In this document: in pieces, positions 54,875 to 56,760 of the stretch | Position numbering within the stretch: the stretch's first letter is position 1 | How the letters are laid out: every line of letters begins with the position of its first letter | Assembly: GCF_039655875.1 (NCBI RefSeq) | Contig: NZ_JBBYXK010000002.1 | Span: 682,001-746,000 of the forward strand | Direction: 5' to 3' | Source: Emcibacter sp. SYSU 3D8 | GTDB lineage: Bacteria; Pseudomonadota; Alphaproteobacteria; SMXS01 | DNA length: 64,000 nucleotides | Translations under genes and position numbers: made by a program | Notes under the pieces: model-generated | The model's input: only the letters and a program-made list of their open reading frames with translations | Databases searched by the model: none | What the model was told of the DNA's origin: nothing

Positions 54875-54944
54875 GGAGACCCCCTCCTGAACGCCGAAAT
54901 GCTTTCCACTGTTATACGGCTTCTTGCCGCCGTATATAAGTCCG

Positions 54945-56093
54945 ATGAACTGGAACCCGTCACTGGCGCGTGATCCCGACGCACGGCATGCCCTGCTGCG
55001 CCGCGTGGAAGAGGCGTTCGCGGCCCTGCGGCGCGGCCGGCTGGTCACGGTGACGGGCGAGCAGGGCGCCACCTTGTGCCTGGCGGCGGAGACCGTATCG
55101 CCGGAGACCATGGGCGATCTGAAGCGCCGGTCGAAGGCGACGCCCATGGTGGCGCTGACCGCCCACCGGGCCGCCGTGCTGCGGATCAACCCGACAGGCG
55201 CGGATATCATCCGCGTGCCGCTTGCCTCGCACTTCAATGCCAGGCTGGTCCGGTCGCTGGCCGATCCGACCCATGATCTGGACAATCCCATGCGCGGACC
55301 GTTCGCCCGTTCGTGGGACCCGGTGCCGGATACCACGCGCGCCGCCATCAAGTTGTGCAAGCTGGGTCAATTGCTCCCCGCGGTCGTCGGCGTGCAGGTG
55401 GACGGCGCGCCCAACGAATCGATCCCGGCCGTGTCGGTCGCGGATATCGAGGCCTATGACGAGGTTGCAGCCGTCAGCCTGCATCCGGTCTCCTCGGCCC
55501 GCGTGCCGCTGCGCGGCGCCGAAGCGTCGCGGGTGATCGCCTTCCGGCCCGAGGATGGCGGCGTCGAGCATCTGGCCATCGTCATCGGCGATCCCAATCC
55601 CGACCAGCCGGTGCTGATCCGGCTTCATTCCGAATGCTTCACCGGCGACCTGCTGGGTTCGCTCAAATGCGACTGCGGCGAACAACTGCGCGGCGCCATC
55701 GACGCCATCGGCGAGGCTGGCAGCGGCATTCTGCTGTATCTGGCGCAGGAGGGCCGGGGCATCGGCCTGATCAACAAGCTGCGCGCCTATCACCTGCAGG
55801 ACGACGGCTTCGATACGGTCGAGGCCAACGAACGCCTCGGTTTCGATGCCGATGAACGCCTGTTCCTGCCAGCCGCCGAGATGCTGCGCAGCCTGGGCTT
55901 CGACCAGGTGCGGCTGATGACCAACAATCCGGACAAGGTCGACTCGCTCGCCCGTTTTGGGATCGAGGTGGTGGAGCGGGTGCCGCACGAGTTCCCGTCC
56001 AACGCCCACAACGAACTGTATCTGGCGACCAAGGCCCGGCGCAGCGGGCATTACCTGTCGGGGCCGGGCCTGAAAGCCCGGAGCAAGAGCTGA
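54945..56093 (+). CDS. ribA: GTP cyclohydrolase II with N-terminal extension
   Basis: A 382-residue protein whose C-terminal half (about 200-380) is GTP cyclohydrolase II of riboflavin synthesis. The zinc cysteines lie in HSECFTGDLLGSLKCDCGEQ, and the active-site stretch YLAQEGRGIGLINKLRAY and RLMTNNPDKV are complete. The first 190 residues form a domain that I do not recognise as an intact RibB; it is a long N-terminal region found in some alphaproteobacterial homologues. ATG 54945 is the first ATG of the frame, with a weak ribosome site. The YkuD gene overlaps its stop. Confidence 0.88.
   Translation: MNWNPSLARDPDARHALLRRVEEAFAALRRGRLVTVTGEQGATLCLAAETVSPETMGDLKRRSKATPMVALTAHRAAVLRINPTGADIIRVPLASHFNARLVRSLADPTHDLDNPMRGPFARSWDPVPDTTRAAIKLCKLGQLLPAVVGVQVDGAPNESIPAVSVADIEAYDEVAAVSLHPVSSARVPLRGAEASRVIAFRPEDGGVEHLAIVIGDPNPDQPVLIRLHSECFTGDLLGSLKCDCGEQLRGAIDAIGEAGSGILLYLAQEGRGIGLINKLRAYHLQDDGFDTVEANERLGFDADERLFLPAAEMLRSLGFDQVRLMTNNPDKVDSLARFGIEVVERVPHEFPSNAHNELYLATKARRSGHYLSGPGLKARSKS
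56080..56092 (+). promoter_or_regulatory. Ribosome site and apparent CTG start for the YkuD gene
   Basis: GGAG at 56080-56083, 6 bases before CTG at 56090-56092, which overlaps the ribA stop codon TGA (56091-56093) in the form CTGA. No ATG, GTG or TTG is available in this frame before residue 20. This fits translation coupling with an unusual start codon. Confidence 0.55.
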
Positions 56094-56590
56094 GCCTGCT
56101 GATCCGTGTCGAGCGTGAGGGCTGGCTGTCGTGGGGCGACCGGCAGGTGCGCTGCGCACTGGGCAAGGGCGGCGTCCGGGCCGACAAGAAGGAAGGCGAC
56201 GGCGCCACGCCCGTGGGGCGGTTCGTGATGCGGCGGGTCTATTACCGTCCCGACCGGCTGGAGACGCCCGTGACTCGGTTGCCCATCATCCAGCTGTTTC
56301 CCGACGATGCCTGGTGCGACGATCCGGATTACCCCACCTACAACAGCAAGGTTGTCACACCCTATCCGGCCCGCACCGAGACCCTGTGGCGCGACGACCA
56401 CCTCTACGACATCATCGTGGTGCTGGGACATAACGACGCGCCGGTGGTGCCGGGCGCCGGCAGCGCCATATTCCTGCATGTGGCGGCGCCCGGCTACTGC
56501 CCTACGGAAGGCTGCGTCGCCGTCGCCATCGAAGACCTGATGGACATATTGCGCGAGGCGCGCAAGGGCGCGGAGATCGAGGTCCTGTAA
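56090..56590 (+). CDS. YkuD-domain (L,D-transpeptidase-like) protein
   Basis: A 166-residue protein of the YkuD superfamily when read from the CTG at 56090. It begins with LLIRVEREGWLSWGDRQVR, which matches the usual N-terminus of this group, then CALGKGGVRADKKEGDGATP, the glycine/lysine motif. The active cysteine is Cys142 in PTEGCVAVA, with His in IFLHVAAPG. It has no signal peptide and resembles the short cytoplasmic YkuD branch, so a crosslinking role in peptidoglycan is not certain. The first canonical start (GTG 56147) would cut off 19 conserved residues. Confidence 0.75.
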   Translation: MSLLIRVEREGWLSWGDRQVRCALGKGGVRADKKEGDGATPVGRFVMRRVYYRPDRLETPVTRLPIIQLFPDDAWCDDPDYPTYNSKVVTPYPARTETLWRDDHLYDIIVVLGHNDAPVVPGAGSAIFLHVAAPGYCPTEGCVAVAIEDLMDILREARKGAEIEVL

Positions 56591-56592
56591 CC

Positions 56593-56760
56593 ATGATTAC
56601 CGTATGGAGCCGCAAGACATCCCAGAACGTATTCAAGGTCATGTGGCTGCCGCGGTTCCTGCGGCCCTCACCGCCGGACAACCAGTTGCAGAAAAGGCCC
56701 GCCTACCGTGAGCACGTCATGGTGTCGTTCGAGGAACTGCGCGGGCGGCTGGCGTACTGA
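56593..56760 (+). pseudogene. Internally deleted glutathione S-transferase remnant
   Basis: A 55-residue open frame. Its start MITVWSRKTSQNVFKVMW is the thioredoxin-like N-terminus of a bacterial GST; its end KRPAYREHVMVSFEELRGRL is the C-terminal helix of the same protein class. The middle, about 150 residues of GST, is missing, and a short junction (LPRFLRPSPPDN) joins the two ends in frame. This is what an in-frame deletion would leave. The product could not bind both substrates of a GST. It sits 3 bases after the YkuD gene. Confidence 0.68.

Follow-up and report, generated by a model that had tools for sequence, protein, structure and literature searches.

Where does translation begin in a gene whose reading frame contains no ATG, GTG or TTG ahead of a conserved stretch of its protein? 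The question is raised by a YkuD-domain gene directly downstream of ribA in the genome of Emcibacter sp. SYSU 3D8, within the 64,000-nucleotide stretch of DNA analysed here (hereafter the window). The frame of this gene is open from stop to stop between 55856 and 56590, with its upstream stop at codon -78, and a scan of the frame confirmed what a sequence-only reading of the same DNA had stated, namely that no canonical start lies between that stop and GTG 56147. The same reading had proposed a rare start at CTG 56090, coupled to the end of ribA. Both features on which it relied are present: a GGAG (56080-56083) separated from CTG 56090 by 6 bases, and a CTGA in which the CTG (56090-56092) and the ribA stop TGA (56091-56093) overlap by TG. 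It had left out two further in-frame CTG codons, at 56096 and 56099. Translation from 56090 yields LSLLIRVEREGWLSWGDRQVRCALG.., and the N-terminus quoted earlier, LLIRVEREGWLSWG, begins two codons later. The features of the junction are collected in Table 1.

Table 1. Features of the ribA–YkuD junction, in positions of the window.
Feature	Position	Strand	Remarks
ribA (GTP cyclohydrolase II), upstream gene of the pair	54945..56093	+	stop TGA 56091-56093; Pfam GTP_cyclohydro2 E 7e-60
GGAG, putative Shine-Dalgarno sequence of the YkuD gene	56080..56083	+	same distance in 7/7 genus members
CTG, candidate judged the most likely start codon	56090..56092	+	-4 overlap (CTGA) with the ribA stop
CTG, rival start codon	56096..56098	+	column used as start by 33/94 relatives
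CTG, weaker rival start codon	56099..56101	+	TTG in L004, GTG in L008, CAT in L007, CTG in 4
YkuD-domain protein, putative L,D-transpeptidase, 166 aa from CTG 56090	56090..56590	+	PF03734 E 1.1e-14
GTG, first canonical in-frame start, judged not to be the start	56147..56149	+	not GTG in L005, L006

The ribA and YkuD genes

The match of the upstream gene to TIGR00505 is above the cut-off, and its start at ATG 54945 is our own choice. The N-terminal part of RibA (55008-55196, +) has a DHBP synthase match that stays below the Pfam cut-off (22.6 vs 26.4 bits), and the protein is perhaps RibBA-like with a degenerate RibB half. Between ribA and a divergent response-regulator-like gene, a perfect 8-bp inverted repeat (TATACGGC-N8-GCCGTATA, positions 54913-54936 of the window) was seen by eye; it could be an operator.

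The downstream protein matches the YkuD catalytic domain (PF03734) with 55.7 bits against a cut-off of 23.4, and it begins directly with the domain. Residues H130, T139, G141 and C142 do not vary across an alignment of 40 proteins and fit the active-site motif of YkuD L,D-transpeptidases (His, Ser/Thr, Gly and Cys). A search by sequence for a relative of solved structure found none, the only match being unrelated (E 0.95). B. subtilis YkuD (4a1i) and M. tuberculosis LdtMt1 (4jmn) carry the same Pfam domain and are weak fold matches (best E 1.5e-4), and the 50 fold matches shown, which include YkuD L,D-transpeptidases, have 8-15% identity and TM-scores of 0.41-0.52 by query length.

Two nucleotides past the YkuD stop lies a 55-aa ORF (56593-56757, +) whose matches to a 214-aa glutathione S-transferase gene are confined to the two ends of that gene. 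G002 carries the intact gene at the corresponding place (L033:3504-4145, no internal stop; GST_N and GST_C), and G003 (L007) likewise has both ends; the stretches examined of L003, L005, L006 and L008 gave no match. Judging from these comparisons, the ORF looks like the remnant of a glutathione S-transferase gene that has undergone an internal deletion.

The absence of a canonical start across the genus

We compared seven genomes of the genus (L002-L008), consisting of the window's own genome and six sister species. The YkuD gene is present in all seven with ribA immediately upstream, an order also found in G007, which belongs to the nearest other genus, and CTGA stands at the same place over the ribA stop in all seven. 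At the three columns 56090/56096/56099 the codons read CTG/CTG/CTG in L002, L003, L005 and L006, CTG/CCG/TTG in L004, CTG/CTG/CAT in L007 and CTG/CTG/GTG in L008. CTG 56090 is the sole nearby NTG kept in 7/7 genomes, with CTG at the 56096 column in six. In four genomes, the window's own among them (L002, L005, L006 and L007), the first 18 codons contain no canonical start, and in L005 and L006 there is none ahead of codons 49 and 41, respectively. The other three do have one, namely TTG at codon 3 in L004, GTG at codon 3 in L008 and GTG at codon 6 in L003. That several species lack a canonical start here disfavours chance. Taken together with the protein-coding character of the upstream segment, it makes a start codon outside ATG, GTG and TTG very likely for this gene. 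The rare start proposed by the sequence-only reading is to this extent well supported, by six other species and by a conserved, structured N-terminus (see below), while CTG 56090 is not its sole candidate, as 56096 must be considered as well.

The conservation of CTG 56090 is in itself weak evidence, because its C is also the wobble base of the last ribA codon (AGC in six genomes, CGC in L004). A synonymous change of this C to T would create TTG in all seven genomes and has not occurred. The GGAG is kept in L008, as GGAGG, despite different encoded RibA residues; L007 has both the GGAG and an equally long AAGG further upstream.

Choosing among the CTG codons

For start statistics we used a sample of 400 kb, a tenth of the genome. 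It holds 246 genes with a coding score of at least 12; for 101 of them the first canonical start is the same in G003. Of these 101 starts, 58 follow a Shine-Dalgarno match of 4 bases or longer, and in 33 of the 58 the aligned spacing is 5-7. The aligned spacing of the GGAG is 5 to CTG 56090, within this commonest range, 11 to CTG 56096 (a spacing seen at 2/58 starts) and 14 to CTG 56099 (0/58). The GGAG by itself is unremarkable, since 1822 of 5000 random 25-base sites of the genome also have a match of at least 4 bases. The geometry of the overlap was compared with 79 neighbouring gene pairs, counting canonical starts only and choosing, between -60 and +40, the shared start that lies furthest upstream. 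The -4 overlap of stop and start was the commonest arrangement, occurring in 20/79 pairs (17 with ATG, 2 with GTG and 1 with TTG); a gap of +2, as for CTG 56096, occurred in one pair and a gap of +5, as for 56099, in none. Among 56 other neighbour pairs, six also contain an in-frame CTGA, each with a canonical start nearby, and the overlap alone therefore proves little.

Relatives outside the genus point in more than one direction. In G008, a member of the same family, an ATG occupies the 56090 column in an ungapped alignment, and the ATG that the sequence-only reading had asked for in relatives, as support for CTG use, is present in that one genome. G007 instead has TTG at the 56096 column, 3 nt after the ribA stop and with a Shine-Dalgarno spacing of 10. 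Among 94 relatives outside the genus the 56096 column is the commonest single start (33/94, vs 11/94 at 56090), in a tally that took the canonical codon nearest 56096 without gaps, and thus leans against 56090, and in which species may recur. G009 begins 8 codons further upstream, so the position of the start varies within the family.

These data leave two main readings. It is quite possible, if the less probable of the two, that the gene starts at CTG 56096 (or 56099), 2 or 5 nt past the ribA stop, where terminating ribosomes would reinitiate downstream. The preference of the 94 relatives, the similarly long spacing in G007, and the fact that L004, with CCG at 56096, has TTG at 56099 and L008 has GTG there all speak for such a start. 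The rarity of its Shine-Dalgarno spacings and of its gaps speaks against it, as does the absence of NTG at 56096 in L004 and at 56099 in L007. In Shine-Dalgarno spacing, in the geometry of stop and start and in conservation, no other single codon does as well as CTG 56090, and on balance we consider that the gene is probably translated from this codon, in a -4 (NTGA) overlap with ribA. The weights were set by judgement, the largest for 56090, a smaller one for 56096 or 56099 together and a small remainder for everything else.

The segment ahead of GTG 56147

A start at GTG 56147, with the upstream conservation incidental, is very improbable. This codon is the first canonical start of the frame and is present in 5/7 genus members, and the Pfam match begins near it, at profile position 25 of 146. 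It is missing, however, in L005 and L006, which have no canonical start before codons 49 and 41, and the Shine-Dalgarno match ahead of it is 3 bases at most. Relatives also keep the segment upstream of it: the residues encoded there align with those of relatives that are 48-65% identical and begin with ATG, GTG or TTG nearby (40 aligned proteins). Residue 11 is a glycine in at least 90% of these 40 proteins, a level of conservation not listed for it in a set of 45. An AlphaFold2 model built with 45 sequences (mean pLDDT 94.7) places strands at residues 4-8, 12-15 and 18-21. GTG 56147 encodes residue 20, within the third predicted strand, and a protein starting there would lose strands 1 and 2 and have strand 3 cut. 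As judged from the alignments and the model, the segment ahead of GTG 56147 is genuine protein, conserved and structured, and a start at GTG 56147, which the sequence-only reading had named as a possible refutation, fails on both its conservation and its predicted effect on the fold.

Along the frame, substitutions among the seven genus genomes change from a ribA pattern to a YkuD pattern. Pairwise differences by codon position in the YkuD frame number 205/40/6 over the 40 codons upstream of the gene, which is the pattern of ribA, 53/75/93 over codons 4-18, 29/34/151 over codons 19-40 and 228/150/772 over codons 41-159. In the last of these, 772 of 1150 differences fall at third positions, which shows purifying selection on that part of the gene. 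Among the genus members, codons 4-18 change rapidly and their coding signal is weak, which we count against the certainty of the CTG 56090 start.

Even less credence is due to the production of RibA and YkuD as one protein through a -1 frameshift near the end of ribA. The YkuD frame is indeed the -1 frame of ribA and is open for at least 26 codons upstream in 7/7 genomes, but an X XXY YYZ heptamer is absent from the last 26 ribA codons of all seven, and no fused ribA-YkuD gene was found in the 12 distinct genomes that have ribA immediately before YkuD (19 loci when duplicates are counted), each of which has the ribA stop. With neither a slippery heptamer nor a fused gene, we rejected the frameshift. 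Least credible of all is a canonical start masked by a sequencing error, or a gene in decay: by their titles, five of the seven genomes were assembled from metagenomes, but the arrangement is common to seven separate genomes, six of them other than the window's own, which refutes the error at 56090 that the earlier reading had allowed for, unless the same error recurs in every one, and the purifying selection on codons 41-159 speaks against decay.

A putative route to initiation at CTG

If CTG 56090 is the start, ribosomes finishing RibA at UGA 56091 would halt within reach of the GGAG at 56080. The 16S tail would then pair with the GGAG, placing CUG 56090 in the P site, and fMet-tRNA would be accepted there even though the first base is mismatched, a step favoured by the ribosomes that terminate close by; we consider this course the most likely one. 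The geometry of the junction is observed, and the points that we infer are initiation itself, the CTG at which it occurs, its coupling to ribA and a low output; restart, dependence on ribA and low yield are drawn from published data on CUG (excerpt of PMC11497404) and on -4 pairs (excerpt of PMC12548453). According to the former, which cites another study, CUG works at 0.86% of AUG and makes up 0.024% of bacterial initiation codons. A DnaA-leader CUG with a Shine-Dalgarno sequence gives toeprints in vitro and is described, in the excerpted text of PMC8443254, as unused in vivo. Both the unused DnaA-leader CUG and the low efficiency of CUG count against a start at CTG 56090.

Near the end of ribA there is also a possible hairpin (CCGGGC-N6-GCCCGG, 56064-56081, +) that covers the first two bases of the GGAG. 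The fold of a 71-base region around it is no more stable than those of shuffled sequences (z +1.02), and by eye its stem is kept only in part in L008. On these two grounds we do not claim a coupling hairpin.

Rarity and known parallels

A screen of 347 conserved coding segments (the 400 kb compared with G003) flagged 19, of which 11 had a coding score below 12 and one, ORF 1669, ran off the end of the stretch. Inspected by eye, the YkuD ORF was alone among the 19 in having no plausible canonical start in both genomes. Including the YkuD gene, 17 pairs had no shared nearby canonical start, and the inspection of 7 of the other 16 gave no convincing second case. Because neither the screen nor these seven pairs gave a second case, CTG does not appear to be used freely in the sampled tenth of the genome. 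Switches to CUG are also scarce elsewhere, with 4 in 68,906 reconstructed starts from 36 triplets of related genomes (our sum from an excerpt of PMC5622118). A literature search on CTG start codons in Alphaproteobacteria, limited in its wording, found nothing on the YkuD gene.

A non-canonical start conserved throughout a genus is known in kind, and the closest case is sigR of Streptomyces, whose GTC start is repressed by IF3 and is found in 32/34 species together with a conserved ribosome binding site (excerpt of PMC5472188). As in the predicted case described here, a start outside the canonical set is kept genus-wide; the same excerpt reports no evidence that other actinobacterial genera use the GTC start of sigR. 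The two genes differ in that the sigR start was studied by experiment, has a strong binding site (AGGAGGTG) and belongs to a regulator (PMC5472188, in part), whereas the YkuD gene has a CTG and a 4-base match, encodes an enzyme and is known here from its sequence. Another rare start outside ATG, GTG and TTG is the ATT/ATC of infC, which encodes IF3; the available text of PMC5472188 describes infC as autoregulated by IF3, whereas no such loop is evident for the YkuD gene. As for the overlap, NTGA (-4) is described as much more common between neighbouring genes than any other spacing (excerpt of PMC12548453), and in coupled NTGA pairs TGA and NTG share two bases (excerpts of PMC12548453 and PMC6728339), as they do at the ribA-YkuD junction if CTG 56090 is the start. 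The difference is that N is C here, whereas the 20 pairs with a -4 overlap in our sample use ATG, GTG or TTG, in a count restricted to canonical starts. By analogy with sigR, the CTG might act as a genus-wide, built-in throttle, such that a cell-wall enzyme would depend entirely for its synthesis on ribosomes coming straight from the end of RibA, at a low and IF3-sensitive rate; we regard this idea as unlikely.

The YkuD gene is an ordinary one; what is unusual is a very rare start codon that appears to be kept throughout a genus and is easily missed in annotation. A program restricted to ATG, GTG and TTG must misplace the start of this gene, and the proteins of L005 and L006 would lose 49 and 41 of 166 codons, respectively. 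If true, a CTG start kept in seven species would offer a naturally occurring test of whether coupling can sustain CUG initiation.
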